From: a virus
Length of the DNA: 33,755 bases
Reading direction: 5' to 3' (one strand)
Virus record (IMG/VR): IMGVR_UViG_3300034283_003117
Location: 1 to 33,755 of that record
The position numbers and the translations under genes were made by a program. The notes under the pieces are model-generated. The model had not been told where the DNA came from. It did not search any database and saw nothing but the letters and a program-made list of their open reading frames with translations. Shown here piece after piece: positions 7,013 through 22,181 of this stretch; position 1 is the stretch's first letter, and every line of letters starts with the position of its first letter.

Positions 7013-7954
7013 ATGAACATTTTAGTCACTGGTGGCTATGGATTTATCGGCAGCAATTTTATTAATTTTATTGCTAAAAAGGATGAAGTAAAACAGATTT
7101 TGAATATTGATTCAATGACATATGCTTCAAATAAAAATAATATCGCTGATAATTCAAAAATTGTTCCAACATCACCGTTAGATATTCGTGAAACATTATT
7201 TATTTCTAAATTACTAGACGCACAGCAAATCACACATATTGTTCACTTTGCAGCTGAAAGTCATGTGGACAATAGCATTAATGGTCCTGAAACATTTATT
7301 AACACCAATATTAACGGCACGTTTTCTCTACTAGAAGCCGCGAAACAATATGGCAAATTAGAAAGATTTCATCATGTATCAACAGATGAAGTATATGGAT
7401 CGTTAGGACCTATAGGTTTTTTTAAAGAATCTACACCTTACAATCCACGGTCACCTTATTCTGCATCAAAAGCTGCTTCAGATCATTTAGTAAACGCCTA
7501 TCATTACACGTACGGATTGAATACTACAATTAGCAATTGTTCCAATAATTATGGACCCAATCAACACACAGAAAAATTAATTCCCAAAATTATTACTAAT
7601 TTGAAACAAAATAAAAAAATTCCAATTTACGGTACTGGTCAAAATGTTCGAGATTGGTTGTATGTGGAAGATCATTGTGAGGCTATTTGGAAGATACTTT
7701 TAAAAGGAAAATCTGGCGATACCTATAATGTAGGTGGTGATTGTGAAATGAATAATTTACAAATTGCAAAAGTTATTTGTAAATTATTAGGTAAAGATCA
7801 TGAAGAATATATTGAATTTGTAGAAGACCGAAAAGGGCATGACTTCAGATATGCTATTGACTTTTCTAAAATTAATAATGAATTGGGTTGGCTTCCCAAA
7901 ACATCTTTTGAATCTGGTCTCAAGAAGACTATTGATTTTTATTCAACACAATAG
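7013..7954 (+). CDS. rmlB: dTDP-glucose 4,6-dehydratase-like NAD-dependent sugar dehydratase
   Basis: An extended SDR enzyme of the RmlB type. It has a Rossmann glycine motif GGYGFIG (7-13), FAAESHVDNSI, the dehydratase signature STDEVYG (123-129, supplying Thr, Asp and Glu), the catalytic YSASK (149-153), NCSNNYGP and GTGQNVRDWLYVEDH. RmlB-type enzymes convert NDP-glucose to the 4-keto-6-deoxy sugar; whether the nucleotide is dTDP or CDP cannot be told. The length (313) is slightly short for the family. It opens the rightward cassette, 32 bases from the divergent fibre-like gene. Its last codons (LKKTIDFY) are echoed in a vestige at 8706-8735. Confidence 0.88.
   Translation: MNILVTGGYGFIGSNFINFIAKKDEVKQILNIDSMTYASNKNNIADNSKIVPTSPLDIRETLFISKLLDAQQITHIVHFAAESHVDNSINGPETFINTNINGTFSLLEAAKQYGKLERFHHVSTDEVYGSLGPIGFFKESTPYNPRSPYSASKAASDHLVNAYHYTYGLNTTISNCSNNYGPNQHTEKLIPKIITNLKQNKKIPIYGTGQNVRDWLYVEDHCEAIWKILLKGKSGDTYNVGGDCEMNNLQIAKVICKLLGKDHEEYIEFVEDRKGHDFRYAIDFSKINNELGWLPKTSFESGLKKTIDFYSTQ
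7922..7945 (+). repeat. Direct repeat copy 1 (end of first dehydratase gene)
   Basis: The 24 bases encoding the end LKKTIDFY of the dehydratase nearly match 8706-8729 (AAGAAGA..ATTGATTTTTAT in both). The two copies bracket the methyltransferase gene. Confidence 0.6.
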
Positions 7955-10325: not shown

Positions 10326-11092
10326 AAATGCTGATTAAACAACAACGGAATAGTGGTTTTTTTTCTGATTTTAATTTAATTGTTAGTAGTTTACTTTACT
10401 TATATAAAAATAATATATCTGAATATAATTTTTGGTGGAATAATTGGAGATATCAAGAATCGCCAAAAATAAATTTATTTGATATCATTTTCAGCGAACA
10501 ACCCATAATAGATAACCCCGATAAAATAACCACAGTAGAAGAATTTGATACCATATGGAAACCTATTATGGAAAAGTCAATTTATATTGAACTCAATAAG
10601 GTTTTATCACATTTTCAATATTTCAAAAATGCTTTATATCTTAATAAGATATCTATCGCAAAAAATAAAATCAAATCTAATTGTCTGGGGGTACATGCTA
10701 GATTTACTGACGCTACAATACATAGGCCTCATATACCAATACAATATTATTTCGATACAGTAGAAGCATATGTGAAACAAAATAATAATATCAAAAGTTT
10801 GTTTGTCGCTACTGATGACCAAAAAATATTAGAACAGTTTATAAAGAGATATGGTATAGATACTGTACAATATAATCATAACATAATTAGAAGCTTGGAC
10901 GGCCAAGCAATTCATGCTGATTTATATAATCCAAATAAACACCAATTAATGGAAGATGTAATTTTAGATGGAATTTGTATGTCGTTATGTGATACTCTAA
11001 TTCATACTGCTAGCAATGTCGCGGGGTATTGCTTTACGTTAAATCCTAATTTAAATTCAGTTCAAATTGATAAACACTTACCACATTTTTGA
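10322..11092 (+). CDS. Fucosyltransferase-like protein (NodZ/FUT8/O-FucT fold)
   Basis: A GT-B protein resembling alpha-fucosyltransferases. LGVHARFTDA at 122-131 corresponds to the HxRxTD-type nucleotide-binding motif, FVATDD at 161-166 to the (I/L)xTDD motif, and VILDGICMSLCDTLIHTASN to the late segment before the donor-site Ser/Asn. The 256-residue length is compact. The cassette also makes GDP-fucose (Gmd and Fcl, 19-21.6 kb), which strengthens the call by context. The acceptor is unknown. It overlaps the upstream glycosyltransferase by four bases. Similar motifs occur in GT11 enzymes, so the exact family is open. Confidence 0.68.
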   Translation: MKMLIKQQRNSGFFSDFNLIVSSLLYLYKNNISEYNFWWNNWRYQESPKINLFDIIFSEQPIIDNPDKITTVEEFDTIWKPIMEKSIYIELNKVLSHFQYFKNALYLNKISIAKNKIKSNCLGVHARFTDATIHRPHIPIQYYFDTVEAYVKQNNNIKSLFVATDDQKILEQFIKRYGIDTVQYNHNIIRSLDGQAIHADLYNPNKHQLMEDVILDGICMSLCDTLIHTASNVAGYCFTLNPNLNSVQIDKHLPHF

Positions 11093-11099
11093 TATTTTT

Positions 11100-12419
11100 A
11101 TGCCCACAAAAAAAGAACAAATTATTTCTTTAGTAAAAGATTTTTTTCAAGAAAAAGAATCTGAAAAAAAATGGATACCCAATAAAGATTGGGTTCAATA
11201 TGCGGGGCCTTTTTTTGATGAAAATGAATATGTTTCTTCTATCGAAACTTTATTAGATGGTTGGTTAGTTTTAGGCACTAAAGGAATTTCTTTTGAAAAT
11301 GTATTCCCGAAAGAAGTAGGGAAAGAATATGGTATTTTAACTAATAGTGGAAGTAGTTCAAATTTAATTATGATGTCAGCTTTGACATCCAAACGGTTAA
11401 ATAATTTTCCTAAAGGCACAAAAGTTATTACTCCGATTGCGGGATTCCCTACAACTATTAATCCTATTTTTCAATGTGGTTTTGAACCAGCTTTTGTTGA
11501 CATTGATTTAGATACCTTGAATCTAAATTTGGAACAAGTAGAAGAACAAGCTAAATTAGGAGCTAAAATTATTACATTTGCGCATGTATTAGGTAATCCA
11601 CCAAATATGAATCAATTAATGCAAATTGTTAAAAATTATAATTTGATATTACTTGAAGATTGTTGTGATGCTTTGGGATCAACTTATGACGGTAAACCAT
11701 TGGGTAGTTTCGGCGAATTCGCTAGTTGTTCATTTTATCCTGCCCATCATATTACAATGGGAGAGGGTGGATTTGTTGCTTGTAATACAAAACAACAAGA
11801 AATAGTAGCCCGCAGTTTCAGAGAGTGGGGTAGGGGTTGTTATTGTACTGGACTTAAAGCCAATCTTTTAAAAAATGGTAGTTGTGCAAAAAGATTTTCA
11901 AATTGGCTACCTTCCTTACCGGATGAAGTGTTTGATCACAAATACGTATATGATGAGATTGGTTATAATTTAAAACCAATTGAACTACAAGCTGCAATGG
12001 GCTTAGAACAACTCAAAAAACTTCCAGAAATTACAAAAAGAAGAAAGCACAATCATCAACGTTTGGTTGAAATTTTTAAACCATATGAAGAGTTTTTCGT
12101 TTTGCCAAAAGCTACAGATCTTAGTGATCCGAGTTGGTTTGCATTTGCTGTTACTATTAAGGACAATGCCTCATTTAAAAGATTTGATATAGTAAACTAC
12201 TTAGAGTGCAATAAAATTCAAACTAGACCATATTTTGCTGGCAATATTATGTTACAACCCGCATATGACGGTTTAATGCCCGCAGAAGATGTAATTAAAA
12301 AATTTCCAAATGCTAGAAAAGTTACTACAGATACTTTCTTTTTAGGCACAAGCCCAGTGATAACAGATCAGCAATTAGATTATATAGAAAATATTGTAAA
12401 TAATTTTTTTAAAAAATAA
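11100..12419 (+). CDS. rfbH: NDP-4-keto-6-deoxyhexose 3-dehydratase (RfbH/E1-type, DegT/DnrJ/EryC1/StrS fold)
   Basis: Met at 11100 lies eight bases after the previous stop; the ATG at 11067 would overlap it. The aminotransferase-fold protein has SFYPAHHITMGEGG at 211-224: His216 sits where aminotransferases carry the PLP-lysine. This is the hallmark of 3-dehydratases that use PMP. GRGCYCTG (Cys247, Cys249) and GSCAKRF (Cys262) match the [2Fe-2S] cysteine region of RfbH/AscC E1, with a slightly longer spacing. RfbH removes the C3 hydroxyl of CDP-4-keto-6-deoxyglucose, on the way to 3,6-dideoxyhexoses. The usual E3 reductase is not in the window. It probably acts on the product of one of the RmlB-like enzymes. 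Confidence 0.85.
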   Translation: MPTKKEQIISLVKDFFQEKESEKKWIPNKDWVQYAGPFFDENEYVSSIETLLDGWLVLGTKGISFENVFPKEVGKEYGILTNSGSSSNLIMMSALTSKRLNNFPKGTKVITPIAGFPTTINPIFQCGFEPAFVDIDLDTLNLNLEQVEEQAKLGAKIITFAHVLGNPPNMNQLMQIVKNYNLILLEDCCDALGSTYDGKPLGSFGEFASCSFYPAHHITMGEGGFVACNTKQQEIVARSFREWGRGCYCTGLKANLLKNGSCAKRFSNWLPSLPDEVFDHKYVYDEIGYNLKPIELQAAMGLEQLKKLPEITKRRKHNHQRLVEIFKPYEEFFVLPKATDLSDPSWFAFAVTIKDNASFKRFDIVNYLECNKIQTRPYFAGNIMLQPAYDGLMPAEDVIKKFPNARKVTTDTFFLGTSPVITDQQLDYIENIVNNFFKK

Positions 12420-13124
12420 ATGAAAACATTAATACTCACAGGTGCAGATAAGGGCTCGGATGGTCGTATGCATGAATTGCTAGATTTGACTATACCGTCA
12501 AAACAAAAATATGCTTCCATTCATGGTTATGATTTTTTATCACTTAGATCATTTCCTACTGATCTTGAATGTGGTTTCGATGAAAAAAAACACGTTGGTT
12601 ATTTGAGAGCTAATATTGCATTTAAAATGTTACGCTTTTATGATGCTGTAATGTGGATAGATGGAGACTCTGTAGTAACAAACTTTGATTTTAAAATTAC
12701 GGATTTTCAAAAAAATGATACTTGTTTTACCGCATCTTATGATTGGTTTCATTGTTCTACGTTTAGTACAGGAAATTTTGTTATATTTAAAAATAATAAA
12801 ACACAACATTTATATAATACTTTTTTAGCTTTGGCTCGCCAACGAGTTCAAAACGGTAATCCATTTGACCAAGAGCAAGGTACATTAAATGCATTATGGT
12901 TACGTTTGCCAGAAATTAAGAATTTGTTTAATATTTTACCCCAAAAATTTTTAGGCGGCGTGCCGTCATTTATTACAAAAACACCTTCATGGATACAAAG
13001 AAAAAATGATCAAGTAGGAAAGATTGTCAGTCCATGGGATAAAACTAATTTTTTAGCACATTTGACGGGCATATCAAATGAAGATCGAATTAATATCATT
13101 AAAAATAACATGTTAGAATTATGA
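12420..13124 (+). CDS. GT34-like glycosyltransferase (GMA12/MNN10 family)
   Basis: The motifs KYASIHGYDFLSL (30-42), HVGYLRANIAFKMLRFYDAVMW and IDGDSVVTN (80-88, with the DxD metal site) are typical of the galactosyl/mannosyl transferase family GMA12/MNN10. FSTGNFVIFKNN and FDQEQGTLNAL follow as in the family. The start codon directly abuts the upstream stop and the end overlaps the next gene by four bases, so it is part of the same operon. No signal anchor is seen, unlike the eukaryotic Golgi members. Donor and acceptor are unknown. Confidence 0.78.
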   Translation: MKTLILTGADKGSDGRMHELLDLTIPSKQKYASIHGYDFLSLRSFPTDLECGFDEKKHVGYLRANIAFKMLRFYDAVMWIDGDSVVTNFDFKITDFQKNDTCFTASYDWFHCSTFSTGNFVIFKNNKTQHLYNTFLALARQRVQNGNPFDQEQGTLNALWLRLPEIKNLFNILPQKFLGGVPSFITKTPSWIQRKNDQVGKIVSPWDKTNFLAHLTGISNEDRINIIKNNMLEL

Positions 13125-14068
13125 TAAAGGTAGTTTATATAACTGGTTGTTTGGGTTTTATAGGTTCTTATATAACAAGAGAATGTCTACTGCGTGGTTG
13201 GTATGTTAAAGGCGTTGATAAAATGACTTACGCCTCAAATAAAGACTTATTAAAAGAATTCAATGAGTATTCAAACTTTTCCTTTGTACATTGTGATATA
13301 AATGATTTAAAATTTTTATATGAATGTGATTATATTATAAATACCGCAGCTGAAACACACGTCGGCAATTCTATTGCTGATAGCAAAGAATTTATTCACT
13401 CAAATATAGACGGGGTCTATAATTTATTAGAATTAATAAAAAATTATAGGCAAGAAACCAACAGAAAACCCACATTACTTCATTTTAGTACAGATGAGGT
13501 TTATGGTGATATAATTGAGGGTGAGCATGTAGAAACGGATTTATTAAAACCAAGTAATCCTTATTCTGCAACAAAAGCTGCAGCTGATATGTTAATTCTT
13601 GCGTGGGCGAGAACATATGGCATCCCGTATATAATAGTAAGACCCACAAATAATTATGGCATAGGTCAATATGTAGAAAAATTGATCCCAAAAGCATGCA
13701 AGTATTTAAATTTAAATAAAAAAATGCCATTGCATAACAATGGCACACCAATTAGAAATTGGTTACATGCTTATGATACGGCAACTGCAGTAATTGCAAT
13801 TATTAATGCGGGTGTTGTAAATGAAATTTATAATATTTGTGGTGGTTTTGAACAAACAAATTATGAAACTTTTAGTAAAATTGTATCATGCTATACTAAT
13901 TTGCATGCAAATGATTTTATTGATTTTAATTGTAATAGAAAAGGCCAAGATTTGCGATATGCTTTGAATGATACAAAATTAAAAAATTTGGGATGGTCTG
14001 CAATTAAAAATTTTGATAGTGAAATAATAGATATAGTAGAGTATTATAAGAATAAATTTATTTGGTAA
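13121..14068 (+). CDS. Second NDP-glucose 4,6-dehydratase-like enzyme
   Basis: An extended SDR paralogue of the gene at 7013. It has GCLGFIG (9-15), NTAAETHVGNSI, STDEVYG (123-129) and YSATK (148-152), and RPTNNYGIGQYVEKLIPKA, followed by GTPIRNWLHAYD. The Thr-Asp-Glu dehydratase triad is kept, so 4,6-dehydration is expected. Two such enzymes in one cassette suggest two nucleotide-sugar substrates, for example dTDP- and CDP-glucose, or two linked pathways. An 8-bp stem with an adjoining A7 run (13718-13745) would read as a terminator on the opposite strand. The gene is followed by an 18-base gap containing an A11 run. Confidence 0.85.
   Translation: MIKVVYITGCLGFIGSYITRECLLRGWYVKGVDKMTYASNKDLLKEFNEYSNFSFVHCDINDLKFLYECDYIINTAAETHVGNSIADSKEFIHSNIDGVYNLLELIKNYRQETNRKPTLLHFSTDEVYGDIIEGEHVETDLLKPSNPYSATKAAADMLILAWARTYGIPYIIVRPTNNYGIGQYVEKLIPKACKYLNLNKKMPLHNNGTPIRNWLHAYDTATAVIAIINAGVVNEIYNICGGFEQTNYETFSKIVSCYTNLHANDFIDFNCNRKGQDLRYALNDTKLKNLGWSAIKNFDSEIIDIVEYYKNKFIW
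13718..13745 (-). terminator. Terminator-like hairpin on the antisense strand within second dehydratase gene
   Basis: TGCCATTG and CAATGGCA form an 8-bp stem with a 5-base loop; on the minus strand it is followed by seven T. It lies in coding sequence, so it may be chance or may limit antisense transcription. Confidence 0.3.
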
Positions 14069-14086: not shown

Positions 14087-14893
14087 ATGAATAACAGAGA
14101 ACATAAATGTGTAAAGATTTTAACTGATTTAATTGAGAACGACGGGTTAATTGGCATTAAAACGAGCTTTGAAGATGAAGGCGCATTGTTTAATGAAACA
14201 ATACGTTTAAAAGAAATTTGCAATCAAAGTAAAACTAAAATTACATTAAAAATTGGCGGACCCGAAGCCATCAGAGATATTAAGGATGCTATGATCATAG
14301 GTGTAAAAGGATTAGTTGCACCTATGGTAGAATCTCCGTTCGGACTTAAAAAATTTATCCAAGCTATGCATCTCAATGTATCAAAAGATATATTATCATC
14401 GCTTCAATTATATATAAATATTGAAACAATAAATGGTATAAATTTAGCGGAGCAAATTTTGAATTTACCAGAATCAGAATCTTTGTGCGGCGTTACAATA
14501 GGTAGAGTTGATTTAGTTTCTTCAATGGGAAAGAATAGATCATTCGTCAATGACCCAGAAATTTATTCTTTTGCAAAAAAGGTTTTTACAAAAGTAAAGG
14601 AAAGAGGGTTAAAGGCATGCCTAGGCGGCGCAATATCAATTGACTCATTGAGTTTCTTAAAAGATTTACATCATGAAGGCTTATTGGATAAATTTGAAAC
14701 CAGATATGCAATTTTTGATCCGAGTATCACATTAAAAAATTTATCCAGAGCTCTTTCTAAGGCACAATTATTTGAATATGAGTGGTTAAAAAATAAACAA
14801 GAATTTTATCAAATTGCCGCTGATCAAGATAATAATAGAATACAAATGATCCAAGATCGCATTAATCAATCAGCTTCTTTTTTGAATACCTAA
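14087..14893 (+). CDS. HpcH/HpaI-family aldolase/lyase-like TIM-barrel protein
   Basis: A 268-residue protein of the HpcH/HpaI aldolase and citrate-lyase beta family. Seen: IGIKTSFEDEGA (22-33), LKIGGPEAIRDIKDA, GVKGLVAPMVESPFGLKKF (72-90, with the family Glu at 82), YINIETINGINLAEQI (109-124, Glu113) and VTIGRVDLVSSMG (136-148, Asp142). Family members form or break C-C bonds with pyruvate or acetyl-CoA units using Mg2+. In a sugar cassette it may make or cleave a chain-extended precursor; the real substrate is unknown. A one-base TAATG overlap couples it to the SDR gene. Confidence 0.75.
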   Translation: MNNREHKCVKILTDLIENDGLIGIKTSFEDEGALFNETIRLKEICNQSKTKITLKIGGPEAIRDIKDAMIIGVKGLVAPMVESPFGLKKFIQAMHLNVSKDILSSLQLYINIETINGINLAEQILNLPESESLCGVTIGRVDLVSSMGKNRSFVNDPEIYSFAKKVFTKVKERGLKACLGGAISIDSLSFLKDLHHEGLLDKFETRYAIFDPSITLKNLSRALSKAQLFEYEWLKNKQEFYQIAADQDNNRIQMIQDRINQSASFLNT

Positions 14894-15531
14894 TGAAGGT
14901 TTTAGTTACTGGCGGTTCACGGGGTATCGGAAAGTCTATATGTGATTTTTTTAAATTAAAAGGCCATGAAGTGATATCACCCAACAGAAATGAATTAGAT
15001 CTAAGTGATGATCACATAAATTTAAAAGAAATTGATTTTGATATTATAATTAATAATGCGGGTATTAATCCAATTGGATTAATACCCGACATTAGTGATC
15101 AATTAGCTATGAATGTTAATTATTTTTCACCATTTAAAATAATACAACAAATTTTACCCCATATGATAAAAAAAAATTATGGTCGCATTATTAATATAGG
15201 AAGTATTTGGATCGACAATATCAAATATGGGAGACATGCATATGGGGCTAGCAAAGCAGCCTTACATTCACTCACTAAATCTATAGCAAGTGAATATTCT
15301 CAAAATAATATTTTAGCAAATACCGTTTCGCCCGGGTTTATCAACACTGATTTAACTTCTAAAAATAATACACTTCAAGATTTAGAAAAAATTAAAGAAA
15401 TGATACCTCTTAAAAGGTTAGGAAATGCAAATGAAGTAGCTGAATTATGTTATTTTTTAACAATCAAAAATACATATATTACTGCACAAAATATATTAAT
15501 AGATGGGGGATTTACATGCATCAGAAATTAA
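14893..15531 (+). CDS. Short-chain dehydrogenase/reductase (FabG-like)
   Basis: A compact 212-residue classical SDR: TGGSRGIG (6-13), NNAG (54-57), Ser104 in INIGSIW, YGASK (117-121), then TVSPGFINTDLT and IDGGFT at the end. It is an NAD(P)-dependent oxidoreductase, probably on a hydroxyl or keto group of the intermediate handled by its neighbours. It overlaps the aldolase gene by one base and the dehydroquinate-synthase-like gene by 16 bases. Codons 56-66, just after the NNA of the NNAG motif, coincide with an exact 30-base palindrome (15059-15088), which is unusual inside a gene. Confidence 0.85.
   Translation: MKVLVTGGSRGIGKSICDFFKLKGHEVISPNRNELDLSDDHINLKEIDFDIIINNAGINPIGLIPDISDQLAMNVNYFSPFKIIQQILPHMIKKNYGRIINIGSIWIDNIKYGRHAYGASKAALHSLTKSIASEYSQNNILANTVSPGFINTDLTSKNNTLQDLEKIKEMIPLKRLGNANEVAELCYFLTIKNTYITAQNILIDGGFTCIRN
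15059..15088. repeat. 30-bp perfect palindrome within SDR gene
   Basis: The left half CGGGTATTAATCCAA (15059-15073) is followed at once by its exact reverse complement (15074-15088). It covers codons 56-66 just past the NNA of the NNAG motif. It could form a cruciform or a strong RNA hairpin. Confidence 0.75.
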
Positions 15532-16520
15532 CAATTGAATCAAAAATAAAACAATATACTATAGAATTTTTTTCATCTATATCGCAGTTACCTAAATTTG
15601 ACAATGCAATTTATATTATTGATTCTAAAATTGCAGAAATATATCCACACATAAATGAAAAAAATTCTATATTGATTGATTGTGATGAAAATGCCAAAAC
15701 AATTGATGGTGTTTCCTTTTTATTAAAACAATTAATAATTAAACAAGCTAAAAAAAATACAAAATTAATAGCTCTGGGAGGGGGCGTTTTGCAGGATGTA
15801 GTAGGATTTTGTGCTTCTATACTGTGTAGAGGCATAGATTATATATTAATACCCACAACCCTTTTATCTCAAGCTGATAGTTGCATAGGTGGAAAGACAT
15901 CTATAAATTTTGAAAATAGAAAAAATATTTTAGGAACGTTTTATCCGCCTTCAAATATTTTTATATGTTATGAATTTTTAAAATCATTAGCACCTATTGA
16001 AATTTTAAGTGGTTTGGGTGAAATATACAAGTTTCATATTTTACAAAATAAAATAAATGAATTTTCTGAAACATTATGTTTCGATACAATATATTCTAGT
16101 TTGAAATATAAAAAAAGAATTCTAGAATTAGATGAATTTGATAAAAATGAAAGGCAAATTTTAAATTTCGGTCATACATTTGGCCACGCCTTAGAAGCAT
16201 CATCACAACATGAAATACCGCACGGCATAGCAGTAATAATTGGTTCAATTATAGCTATACATGTTAGCATTGCTTTGCATTTTAATGTACCCCACTTTAA
16301 AACTATTCTTGATATTGGTCATAGCTTAATTAAAAAAACAAATATTGATTTTAAACCAGAATGGTTTGACCCCATTAATTTAATAGAAATTACAAAGTCA
16401 GATAAAAAAAATAATGGCACTTTTAGAATGATTTTAATTAACGACATTCCTATCATTGAACAAATTAAAGACTTGGATATAATTAAAAAATCTATTATTA
16501 AAACATATGAAAGTATCTGA
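15516..16520 (+). CDS. 3-dehydroquinate synthase-like sugar-phosphate cyclase
   Basis: Met at 15516 (MHQKLTIESK) is chosen; the longer frame from 15447 lies almost wholly inside the SDR gene. Seen: ALGGGVLQDVVGF (86-98), RGIDYILIPTTLLSQADSCI (105-124), GGKTSINFENRKN (125-137), GLGEIYKF (Glu169), NFGHTFGHALE (His220) and IPHGIAV (His236). The three metal ligands of the family are present. The usual GEAV is GIAV and parts of the lid differ, so it could be a true DHQ synthase or a relative making a cyclitol such as 2-deoxy-scyllo-inosose or a valiolone-type ring. Its place in a glycan cassette favours the second reading. It overlaps the ThDP gene by 14 bases. Confidence 0.82.
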   Translation: MHQKLTIESKIKQYTIEFFSSISQLPKFDNAIYIIDSKIAEIYPHINEKNSILIDCDENAKTIDGVSFLLKQLIIKQAKKNTKLIALGGGVLQDVVGFCASILCRGIDYILIPTTLLSQADSCIGGKTSINFENRKNILGTFYPPSNIFICYEFLKSLAPIEILSGLGEIYKFHILQNKINEFSETLCFDTIYSSLKYKKRILELDEFDKNERQILNFGHTFGHALEASSQHEIPHGIAVIIGSIIAIHVSIALHFNVPHFKTILDIGHSLIKKTNIDFKPEWFDPINLIEITKSDKKNNGTFRMILINDIPIIEQIKDLDIIKKSIIKTYESI

Positions 16521-18255
16521 TTTCGTAATTCAATTTTTGAGAGATAAATTTTCTGTAGATACTATTTTTACAGTATCTGGTGGTGGTTGTTTATTTCTAA
16601 TTGATTCTTTAGGTAAAACTCCCGGCATGAAATATATAGCTACGCACCATGAACAAGCTGCAGCAATTGCCGCCGAAGGTTATGCTAGACTAAATAACAA
16701 ACTAGGGGCATGTATTGTAACTAGTGGTCCTGGTGGCACCAATGCAATTACAGGAACATTATGTAGTTGGTTAGACTCCATACCGGTAATCGTAATTAGT
16801 GGTCAAGTTAATAAAGAAATGACTACTGACTACACACAATTACCAAATTTGCGCCAATTGGGTGATCAGGAGTTTAATATAATTAATTCTGTTCGAAATA
16901 TGACCAAATATGCGATACAAATTAATGATCCAAACCAAATAAAAGAACATTTAGAAAAAGCTTGTATTTTAGCATGCCATGGCAGACCGGGTCCGGTTTG
17001 GTTAGATATTCCATTGAATATTCAATCAGCAGAAATTGATCCCGAAAAAATATCCGGCGCTTCACCAGAATGGTTGTCTGCCAATACAAAAAAACTTGAA
17101 CCTTCTTCTGAACAAATTGATTTAGTTATTGAAAAATTAAAAAAATCTAAAAAACCTTTATTGATTGCTGGTAATGGTATTAGATTAGCTGGCGCATATG
17201 ATGATTTGCATTTCTTTTTAGAAAAAACAAAAATACCAGTAATTACTGCTGTGAACGGAAATGATTTAGTCAATAATGATTATTCATCATATTTTGGGCG
17301 CTTTGGTACGCATGCACAAATTTGCGCCAACAAATTATTAAATGAATGTGATTTTTTGCTTTCTGTTGGTAGTAGACTTTATGTTAGACAGATAGGATAT
17401 AATTTCAATTCATTTGCATCTCAAGCATATAAATGTTATGTAGATGTCGATACAAATGAATTGAATAAACCCACACTTCATCCTGATTTAAAAATTAATT
17501 CTGATGCTAAAGAATTTTTTAAAAAAATAAATTCACATATATCATACCGGGCTGATCAATCTTGGCTTGATATTTGCAGTAATCTAAAAAAAGAATCACC
17601 CACTGTATTAGAACGGCATAGAAATAAAATTAATACTATAAGCCATTATCATTTTATTGAAAAATTAGAAAAACATATACCGAAAAATTTTCATATTGTA
17701 ACTAGCGACGGATCAGCCAATGTGGTTACAATGCAAGTATTAAATCTATATGGAAAACAACGTTTAATAACAAATACGGGGTGCGCGCCCATGGGGTACG
17801 GATTACCGGCTGCTTTGGGTGCTAGTGTAAATCACAATGTATTGTGTATTGAAGGAGATGGCAGCTTGCATTTAAATGTGCATGAATTACAAACATTGAA
17901 ACATTATAATCTCCCTGTCAAATTAATTATTCTGAATAACGACGGATATTTATCGATAAAAATTTCACAAAAAACATTTTTTGGGGGCAAATATGTAGCC
18001 TCTGAAAAAAATAGTGGTGTGTCGTTTCCTAATTTTGAAAAGCTTATAAACGCATACGATCTACCTTATTTTAAAATATTAAATAAAAATGAAATTGATT
18101 CGACATTAAATGAATTTTTCTCTATAGATGGGCCTAGCGTATGTGAGGTTTTTACCGATCCTAATGAATTGCATGAACCAAAAGTAATTGCAAAATTAAA
18201 TTCTGAAGGTAATTTTATCCCAGGAAAATTACACAACATAGAATGGATAGAATAA
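16507..18255 (+). CDS. Thiamine-diphosphate-dependent enzyme (acetolactate synthase/YerE-like)
   Basis: A 582-residue three-domain ThDP enzyme. The catalytic Glu49 lies in ATHHEQAA, VTSGPGGTN (71-79) follows, the middle domain includes PLLIAGNGIRLAGA, and the ThDP motif runs from GDGS (450-453) to NNDGY (477-481). This is the acetohydroxyacid-synthase layout, shared by YerE (which adds a two-carbon unit to a 4-keto sugar), IolD and other C-C lyases or ligases. In this cassette a role in branching or extending a sugar is plausible. No small regulatory subunit is present, which argues against a plain branched-chain amino-acid role. It overlaps both neighbours by 13-14 bases. Confidence 0.85.
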   Translation: MKVSDFVIQFLRDKFSVDTIFTVSGGGCLFLIDSLGKTPGMKYIATHHEQAAAIAAEGYARLNNKLGACIVTSGPGGTNAITGTLCSWLDSIPVIVISGQVNKEMTTDYTQLPNLRQLGDQEFNIINSVRNMTKYAIQINDPNQIKEHLEKACILACHGRPGPVWLDIPLNIQSAEIDPEKISGASPEWLSANTKKLEPSSEQIDLVIEKLKKSKKPLLIAGNGIRLAGAYDDLHFFLEKTKIPVITAVNGNDLVNNDYSSYFGRFGTHAQICANKLLNECDFLLSVGSRLYVRQIGYNFNSFASQAYKCYVDVDTNELNKPTLHPDLKINSDAKEFFKKINSHISYRADQSWLDICSNLKKESPTVLERHRNKINTISHYHFIEKLEKHIPKNFHIVTSDGSANVVTMQVLNLYGKQRLITNTGCAPMGYGLPAALGASVNHNVLCIEGDGSLHLNVHELQTLKHYNLPVKLIILNNDGYLSIKISQKTFFGGKYVASEKNSGVSFPNFEKLINAYDLPYFKILNKNEIDSTLNEFFSIDGPSVCEVFTDPNELHEPKVIAKLNSEGNFIPGKLHNIEWIE

Positions 18256-19037
18256 AAATTTTAATTACTGGTGCTAATGGATATCTAGGTAAATCATTAG
18301 CGCACCATTTGTCGAAAACACATGAAGTTGTTTGCACAACAAGAAATATATTAGATGTTACTGATATTAATTCTGTTACAAGTTTTCTTTCAAATCAATA
18401 TTTTGACGTAGTTTTGCATTGTGCAATATCAGGTGGAAGCAGACTTAAACTAGAAACATATCAAGATATGGATAACAATCTAATATCTTACTACAATTTA
18501 CTTTTAAATAGAAATTATTTTGGTAAATTTATTAGCTTTGGTTCTGGTGCAGAAATTTATGCTCACCATACACCATATGGTATGAGTAAAAATGTAATTG
18601 CAAAGTCTATTTCTGAAAAAGAAAATTTTTATAATATAAGAATATTCGCAATTTTTGATGAAAATGAATTAGATACACGTTTTATAAAATCATGTATTGT
18701 AAATTGCATTAATAATAAAAATATTAATATACATCAAGATAAATTTTTTGATTTTTTTTATATGGAAGATTTTTTAAAAATAATAGATCTTTACTTAGCA
18801 GAAAAAATTACATATAAAAATTTTGATTGTTGTTATAAAGAAAAAAAGAAACTTAGTGATATAGCAAAATATATTTGTAATTTATTTGAAAAATCTAGCG
18901 ACGATTTTATTTTAAAATTAAATGATAATATAGGTGAAAGTTATACGGGCAATTTTACTGAATTAAATAATATTCATTTTATAGGATTAAATGAGGGGAT
19001 TAATAGAGTATCAAAAATTTTAAGAAATAGTTTTTAA
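18243..19037 (+). CDS. NAD-dependent epimerase/reductase (RmlD/YerK-like, extended SDR)
   Basis: A short, very AT-rich extended SDR. The nucleotide site is TGANGYLG (9-16), FDVVLHCAISGGSR follows, then SFGSGAEIY (98-106) and PYGMSKNVIA with Tyr112 and Lys116. The C-terminal substrate domain is small and diverged, so reductase or epimerase cannot be told apart. It overlaps the ThDP gene by 13 bases. If that enzyme works like YerE, this could be the following reductase of the branched sugar (inference). It is the last gene of the AT-rich block; a 38-base gap with an A/T-rich hairpin separates it from gmd. Confidence 0.78.
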   Translation: MDRIKILITGANGYLGKSLAHHLSKTHEVVCTTRNILDVTDINSVTSFLSNQYFDVVLHCAISGGSRLKLETYQDMDNNLISYYNLLLNRNYFGKFISFGSGAEIYAHHTPYGMSKNVIAKSISEKENFYNIRIFAIFDENELDTRFIKSCIVNCINNKNINIHQDKFFDFFYMEDFLKIIDLYLAEKITYKNFDCCYKEKKKLSDIAKYICNLFEKSSDDFILKLNDNIGESYTGNFTELNNIHFIGLNEGINRVSKILRNSF

Positions 19038-21593: not shown

Positions 21594-22181
21594 ATGATTC
21601 TAGATCAAACCACAACATATAACGGCGACCTTATTCATAAACGTTTTGCTTATGAATTTCTCAGAAAGAATGTATCACCAATCGGGGATTTAATTTGCTT
21701 CCGTGGTGCTATGAATGTAACTACTAATCTAATTGATCAAGAAGATCTCTTAGCTAAAGACTACATCTATAGTAATGATGCTATTAATTTTTGTTGGGAA
21801 ATTCCTAACCTATGTCCATTTGGTGCAGTCGCTTTCCAGCGTCTATTCAATACACAAATTGCTAATATCTTATCTGTTCGTTATATTCAGAAGCCAATTG
21901 AATTAAGGGGTGATGACCTAATTGTTCATGATGTCTTTACCGGATCTGATGGCAAAGAACAAACTAAAGGCAAAGCTTCGGTCTCCATTACCTATTCAAC
22001 TAATAATGTAGCTATTGGACACACCGGAATTAATATTGATGCTGGTAAGAGTGCACCAAATTTTGCTTATTCTACTAAGCTAACAGATGAACAGGTTCTT
22101 CTCTTTATGAAAGATGTGGAAGCAGTATTCTATCATACTGTTCGCGACATTCAGATTGCTACTACTAAAGTTATCCTGTAA
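21594..22181 (+). CDS. DUF366 family protein
   Basis: This 195-residue protein matches DUF366 (PF04017/COG2029), best known from archaea. Seen: TYNGDLIHKRFAYEFL, GDLICFRGAMNV (31-42), IDQEDLLAKDYIYSNDAINF (47-66), FQRLFNTQIANIL, LRGDDLIV (104-111), ASVSITYSTNNVAIGHTGIN (128-147). No function is proven for the family that I can cite with certainty. I recall DUF366 being discussed in connection with phage 7-deazaguanine DNA modification, possibly as the 7-carboxy-7-deazaguanine decarboxylase, but I am not sure. Conserved His, Asp and Cys residues suggest an enzyme. It overlaps the next gene by one base. Confidence 0.75.
   Translation: MILDQTTTYNGDLIHKRFAYEFLRKNVSPIGDLICFRGAMNVTTNLIDQEDLLAKDYIYSNDAINFCWEIPNLCPFGAVAFQRLFNTQIANILSVRYIQKPIELRGDDLIVHDVFTGSDGKEQTKGKASVSITYSTNNVAIGHTGINIDAGKSAPNFAYSTKLTDEQVLLFMKDVEAVFYHTVRDIQIATTKVIL

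Follow-up and report, generated by a model that had tools for sequence, protein, structure and literature searches.

A putative 4-C-branched-sugar cassette with an exchangeable donor-making module in environmental T4-like phages

What would a phage make with five overlapping genes for an aldolase (ald), an SDR (sdr), a DHQ-synthase-like cyclase (cyc), a ThDP enzyme (thdp) and an epimerase-like reductase (epi)? The genes lie in an IMG/VR viral record from an environmental sample, the whole of which, 33,755 bases, was analysed and is referred to here as the window. The right part of the window carries T4-like genes (portal, head protease, sheath stabiliser and head closure). Its portal protein shares 33% identity with cyanophage portals (P-SSM3 and others), which places the phage outside any described phage group that we found. 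The block is surrounded by nucleotide-sugar, glycosyltransferase-like and methyltransferase genes, those for Gmd and an Fcl-like enzyme among them; no nucleotidyltransferase was found among the window ORFs scanned. A gene for a DUF366 protein (21594-22181) separates the sugar genes from T4-like replication genes.

The five ORFs at 14087-19037, which an earlier note had read from the letters of this DNA, were borne out by our analysis. They encode 268, 212, 334, 582 and 264 amino acids, in the order given above and all on the same strand, and successive ORFs overlap by 1, 16, 14 and 13 bases (Table 1). Pfam agreed with the families first named: HpcH_HpaI, a FabG-type SDR, DHQ_synthase with DHQS_C, a three-domain ThDP enzyme, and an NAD-dependent epimerase/reductase. 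The limits of the block had been drawn too narrowly, as the RmlB-like dehydratase gene before ald and the RfbH-like gene further upstream belong to the same set.

Table 1. Positions in the window of the block genes and of the upstream genes assigned to, or possibly feeding, the same pathway.
Feature	Position	Strand	Evidence
RmlB, dTDP-glucose 4,6-dehydratase	7013..7954	+	TIGR01181 436 bits, cut-off 365
RfbH-like NDP-4-keto-6-deoxyhexose 3-dehydrase	11067..12419	+	NF011936 465 bits, cut-off 423
RmlB-like 4,6-dehydratase, opens the conserved cassette	13121..14068	+	TIGR01181 297 bits, under the 365 cut-off
ald, HpcH/HpaI-type class II pyruvate aldolase	14087..14893	+	Pfam, model fold, invariant E113 and D142
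sdr, SDR reductase, partner of the cyclase	14893..15531	+	FabG-type SDR profile; gene neighbourhood
cyc, DHQ-synthase-like sugar-phosphate phospholyase/cyclase	15516..16520	+	TIGR04425 best model; fold; DHQS active-site positions
thdp, putative YerE-like ThDP carboligase	16507..18255	+	JanthE 8rph match; GDG motif; HHEQ glutamate
epi, extended SDR, proposed branch-ketone reductase	18243..19037	+	Pfam Epimerase

The best match of thdp among solved structures is JanthE (377 bits over 575 residues), followed by acetolactate synthase (239 bits). JanthE, which is YerE-like, couples 2-oxo acids to ketones. The GDG motif of thdp lies at position 450, and on the model for the acetolactate synthase large subunit, TIGR00118, the protein scored 359 bits (cut-off 538). 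YerE-like enzymes, to which JanthE has been assigned (PMC12188165), branch NDP-4-keto sugars; CDP-4-keto-3,6-dideoxyglucose is the acceptor of both YerE and ErwE, and ErwE takes 4-hydroxy-2-oxo acids (PMC12247030). Judged by its sequence, thdp is most likely a YerE-like carboligase that couples a 2-oxo acid to C4 of a keto sugar, and not an acetolactate synthase. Rather than the two-carbon unit first suggested, it would most likely add a longer acyl unit derived from the ald product. The gene epi lies downstream of thdp in 53 of 55 viral loci.

A similar destination is indicated by bacteria, where ald loci in Pseudomonadota genomes carry a CDP-3,6-dideoxyhexose route. The order ald-sdr-cyc-thdp-RfbF-RfbG-RfbH-epi is identical in two genomes (G356 and G723); a third (G317) has RfbF-RfbG-RfbH-ald-sdr-cyc-epi with a ThDP gene nearby, and a fourth (G164) has RfbF-RfbG with thdp-ald-sdr-cyc. 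RfbF, RfbG and RfbH scored over curated cut-offs in the bacterial loci where they were scanned. Together these three enzymes make CDP-4-keto-3,6-dideoxyglucose. The YerE-like character of thdp and this position beside the genes for the YerE/ErwE acceptor make it most likely that the block makes a 4-C-branched sugar, a part of our reading that appears fairly secure from the gene content; the sugar is most likely destined for a surface glycan. Both thdp and its RfbH-like neighbour place the block with YerE/ErwE-type 4-C-branched sugars, and the idea that it resembles no characterised pathway is not supported. In a second bacterial type (three loci: L110, L111 and L112) ald is adjoined by a radical SAM/SPASM gene and epi, there is no cyclase, and a ThDP gene and a HAD-IIA phosphatase gene were found in the same loci where these were scanned. 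In another bacterial locus (L113:13620-15962) epi and the ThDP gene are separated by a gene whose product has, by Pfam, a ShET2 N-terminal-type domain.

For a 4-keto-3,6-dideoxy acceptor the window itself has both a 4,6-dehydratase and an RfbH 3-dehydrase that score over their cut-offs (Table 1). In the RfbH-like protein a His replaces the PLP lysine (SFYPAHHITMGEGG), and the pattern C200-X57-C258-X-C260 is what we take to be the [2Fe-2S] signature. The first RmlB gene in Table 1 may feed the pathway. Unlike the CDP route of the bacterial loci, the window dehydratases look dTDP-type, with only 61 and 94 bits on the CDP-glucose 4,6-dehydratase model TIGR02622 (cut-off 278). RfbF and CDP-glucose 4,6-dehydratase, present in the bacterial loci, were absent beside the block among the window ORFs scanned, and for this reason we do not file the block as a CDP pathway. 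In viral loci rmlB is present in 51 of 55, in 35 of them immediately upstream of ald, while many have a different DegT gene in place of RfbH or yielded none.

The donor side would begin with ald, a remote HpcH/HpaI member (Pfam 36.3 bits, cut-off 25). Its model (pLDDT 95.6) comes closest in fold to SbnG and the HpaI-type pyruvate aldolases, which are related, and in all 26 sequences compared E113 and D142 occupy metal-ligand positions, so that score, fold and ligands all agree with membership of this family. The protein had no match in a PDB sequence search or in annotated phages. We propose that its product is a phosphorylated 3-deoxy-2-oxo acid. The 4-hydroxy-2-oxo acids used by ErwE are of the product type of HpcH/HpaI aldolases, which supports the link between ald and thdp. 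Two other relatives of ald lie directly after waaA-like and lpxK-like genes (L128:7178-10227, which was scanned, and L129:7456-10504, with equal gene sizes) and perhaps contribute to LPS core synthesis at a step that involves an ulosonic acid; they lack the other genes of the set and were left out of the comparison. On an Ilyobacter polytropus plasmid (L118:10001-13737) an ald homologue, apparently catabolic, sits beside genes for aconitate hydratase and a 2-hydroxyacid dehydrogenase.

The reading frame of cyc could start at 15447 (357 amino acids). We place its start at the internal ATG at 15516, because relatives begin there and model confidence is low over residues 1-18. All three metal ligands seen earlier are present (E192, H243 and H259, numbered from 15447) and are invariant in 17 relatives, as are nearly all of the DHQS active-site positions that could be mapped, R236 and K222 included. 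The latter two presumably correspond to the carboxylate-holding pair of Aspergillus DHQS (R264 and K250), and their retention suggests that the substrate of cyc is a 2-oxo acid, the type of product expected of ald. The cyc model (pLDDT 88.5) is closest in fold to DHQS (Z 37.1, rmsd 2.1 over 323 residues), then to the 2-deoxy-scyllo-inosose synthase DOIS (34.7), the valiolone synthase EEVS (33.4) and the desmethyl-4-deoxygadusol synthase DDGS (32.1). Despite this likeness to 3-dehydroquinate synthase in fold and active-site positions, cyc stays under the AroB cut-off (TIGR01357, 235 bits; cut-off 305), and the block lacks a shikimate context.

The best-scoring model for cyc is TIGR04425 (322 bits), a hypothetical family described as AroB-related putative sugar phosphate phospholyase, cyclizing, whose members are also SDR-paired. 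Its cut-off of 400 bits is, however, not reached by cyc, nor by the relatives in RfbFGH loci (287, 296 and 280 bits), and these proteins appear by sequence to form a separate branch, tied to the aldolase and the ThDP enzyme, apart from TIGR04425 proper. No match to cyc was found in plasmids at E 1e-35. In annotated phages the only matches were of AroB type or acetolactate-synthase type and less than 60% identical, and most of them came from records that were unannotated or looked bacterial. The literature gave nothing on TIGR04425 or on dehydroquinate synthase with O-antigen genes.

Alignment queries recovered 58 viral loci with ald and 29 with cyc, far more relatives than a single-protein pattern search, which for cyc found one bacterial relative and no viral one. 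The gene order proposed as worth looking for was indeed found, in bacteria as ald-sdr-cyc-thdp beside RfbFGH and in phages as five genes in identical order in dozens of other viral contigs, which argues that the block is not a chance assembly; rmlB-ald-sdr-cyc-thdp-epi is kept in most viral loci. A T4-like portal gene was also present in 7 of 49 records, one of them broken, most records being fragments. In one record (L073:8001-11000) frames are broken in many places by stops of all three kinds, the portal gene included, probably owing to poor assembly.

Comparison of these loci revealed an exchange. Among viral loci with ald and thdp (n = 55, counted once per contig, some contigs being near copies), 41 have sdr and cyc and 14 have a small HAD-type gene instead; none has both and none has neither. 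With duplicates removed and a few bacterial loci included, the numbers were 39 and 13. The HAD-type protein, of about 131 amino acids, carries the motifs DFDGV, YTAKAK, EKPRA and YIDDKA; it has no Pfam or NCBIfam match, and the HAD label comes from the motifs alone. The 131-residue form at L044:8801-9196 represents this HAD-motif phage protein family. Across the two classes ald was up to 93% identical, the dehydratase up to 89% and epi up to 87.5%, whereas thdp never went beyond 59%, and the class label changes 2 times on the thdp tree and 8 times on that of ald. Since thdp is split by class whereas ald, dehydratase and epi are common, the exchanged unit is sdr-cyc-thdp versus HAD-thdp within common flanks. 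The simplest reading of the exchange and the thdp split is that sdr and cyc, or the HAD-type protein, act on the ald product and set the substrate of thdp, and we infer that both options dephosphorylate this product before ThDP coupling. The adjacency of sdr, cyc and thdp may reflect co-inheritance from linkage, not function, so that the argument for coupling is strong but falls short of proof. A 210-kb phage contig (L067:9430-14470) combines cyc with a thdp that groups in the HAD class. Its genes, named by eye from the sequences, would be ald-sdr, a 102-aa HAD-like ORF, a NeuB-like ORF, thdp, cyc, an FGGY-like kinase, a methyltransferase and epi, and it appears to be a richer version of the cassette.

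We propose that the block makes an NDP-activated 4-C-branched deoxysugar in five steps, a model to which we assign a probability of about 0.58. The dTDP-type dehydratases of the window, the missing nucleotidyltransferase, the viral loci that have no RfbH and the mixed locus L067 weigh against it. Gene families, gene order, the bacterial link to RfbFGH and the exchange of sdr and cyc for the HAD gene are taken directly from the sequences, to which the model adds an order of steps and a set of substrates, the chemistry being deduced from structure and gene content. An RmlB-type dehydratase and RfbH would first convert NDP-glucose to an NDP-4-keto-3,6-dideoxyhexose, the ketone acceptor. Secondly, ald would join pyruvate to a sugar aldehyde phosphate, for which we think erythrose 4-phosphate likely, to give a 3-deoxy-2-oxo acid with a terminal phosphate. 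Thirdly, cyc would drop the phosphate through the usual oxidation, elimination and re-reduction, the chain opening as a methyl ketone, with no ring closure, that sdr would reduce; in other phages a HAD-type phosphatase would act instead and leave a CH2OH end. In the fourth step thdp would decarboxylate the 2-oxo acid and transfer the acyl unit onto C4 of the acceptor, and in the fifth epi would reduce the new ketone. If both exchangeable options are dephosphorylating, cyc would be a non-cyclising phospholyase giving a methyl-ended 2-oxo acid, and we advance this outcome as a hypothesis. A methyl ketone left by cyc needs reduction, so an SDR would be required only in loci that use the cyclase in place of the phosphatase, and the gene content fits: sdr is immediately upstream of cyc in 46 of the 48 viral contigs with a cyclase and absent from all 14 HAD-type loci. 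The chain-extended keto sugar, raised earlier as an alternative to a cyclitol, comes close to this model. The cyclitol itself, less likely but conceivable, finds no backing: there is no sign that a ring is closed, and if this unit is the donor for ThDP coupling, it has to be an open 2-oxo acid.

The exact sugar made is hypothetical, and it need not be caryophyllose itself. A tentative version of the model is that cyc, without cyclising, and the SDR convert the aldol of pyruvate and erythrose-4-phosphate (3-deoxy-heptulosonate 7-phosphate) to 3,7-dideoxy-heptulosonate, and that its YerE-like addition to NDP-4-keto-3,6-dideoxyglucose gives a C12 caryophyllose-type sugar; phages that swap the step for a phosphatase would thereby change the glycan. 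With erythrose-4-phosphate as the acceptor of ald, the carbon skeleton would be exactly that of caryophyllose, 3,6,10-trideoxy-4-C-(1-hydroxyethyl)-decose, a C12 sugar whose C4 bears a hydroxylated C6 chain (PMC9026286). Caryophyllose has been synthesized chemically from 3,6-dideoxy-4-ketoglucose and an acyl chloride derived from D-digitoxose (PMC7821131). The biological donor should, by this configuration, be 3,7-dideoxy-D-ribo-hept-2-ulosonate, and the proposed donor minus CO2 is the acyl unit of digitoxose configuration used in that synthesis. We found in the literature no published route to the donor of the erwiniose or caryophyllose side chain, and no gene functions for the caryophyllose region of M. 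marinum.

Alternatively, cyc might close a ring, on the ald product or after ThDP coupling, and the finished sugar keep the carbocycle, like caryose (a 4,8-cyclo nonose) or bradyrhizose (an inositol-fused C10 sugar). We consider this unlikely, though there is precedent for it. The characterised superfamily members nearest to the cyc model are all cyclases, and we know of no member of the superfamily that does not close a ring. Carbocyclic sugars occur in LPS, and caryose and caryophyllose are found in one organism (PMC9026286); moreover, the bradyrhizose O-antigen, whose gene cluster comprises 11 genes, is no longer made when a gene for dTDP-glucose 4,6-dehydratase is lost (PMC4743980). Yet a DHQ-like product would have no 2-oxo acid left for the ThDP enzyme, the conserved R236 and K222 suggest a free 2-oxo acid as substrate and so place cyc before coupling, and the HAD exchange suggests that the common step is phosphate removal and not ring formation. 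It is improbable, in our view, that cyc and the SDR serve a pathway of their own, leading to a cyclitol or a heptose-derived sugar, whose only tie to the branched-sugar genes is genetic linkage. This would accord with loci (L001, L010, L012 and L013) in which a TIGR04425 cyclase and SDR occur free of ald and ThDP genes, with a GmhA-like SIS isomerase, in most cases also with Gfo/Idh and D-2-hydroxyacid dehydrogenase genes, and in L010 with a cytidylyltransferase-cupin; these loci represent another pathway, likewise uncharacterised, that uses this cyclase family. Against such independence speaks the fact that a HAD gene strictly replaces the pair at one and the same position and that thdp divides along the same line. 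Finally, that these are plain metabolic genes for a phage-borne 3-dehydroquinate synthase and acetolactate synthase is scarcely credible: the two families are matched in fold and in cofactor motifs, but both proteins miss the equivalog cut-offs widely, no acetolactate synthase regulatory subunit or other aromatic gene was seen, and the neighbours are nucleotide-sugar genes and glycosyltransferases, with RfbFGH beside the bacterial homologues, all in keeping with the earlier note's preference for a sugar pathway over aromatic or branched-chain amino-acid metabolism.

Plant-associated and aquatic bacteria have C-branched sugars with long side chains in their surface glycans, and in the literature we found no account of how their side-chain donor arises. 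The gene set offers a concrete, testable route to the donor of sugars such as caryophyllose, and possibly a new reaction for the DHQ-synthase fold. It would also amount to a complete branched-sugar cassette in environmental T4-like phages, with dozens of relatives and one module exchanged, a sign that the phage probably depends in some way on the glycan. Viruses were named as a place to look for new functions in a 2025 review on ThDP enzymes of this group (PMC12247030).

The block is, then, most likely a phage-borne version of the YerE-type pathway to branched sugars, and its module for making the donor is one that we did not find described in the literature. A comparable phage glycan locus, that of cyanophage S-SCSM1 (L003:10574-24057), has a different gene set: Gmd, GDP-fucose synthase, GDP-mannose epimerase and many glycosyltransferases. 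JanthE, the closest solved relative of thdp, has a CDG motif in contrast to GDG, and its natural substrates are not known. With the YerE pathway, which leads to yersiniose A from CDP-4-keto-3,6-dideoxyglucose and pyruvate, the block shares an RfbH-type 3-dehydrase, a keto-sugar acceptor, YerE-like coupling and a final reductase. It differs by the extra ald and SDR plus cyclase (or HAD protein) for a longer donor, and, in the window, by a dTDP-type dehydratase, with no RfbF found. The ErwE pathway to erwiniose is similar in that ErwE uses hydroxylated 2-oxo acids, and the C6 side chain at C4 of caryophyllose, known from Pseudomonas caryophylli and Mycobacterium marinum, fits decarboxylated 3,7-dideoxyheptulosonate.
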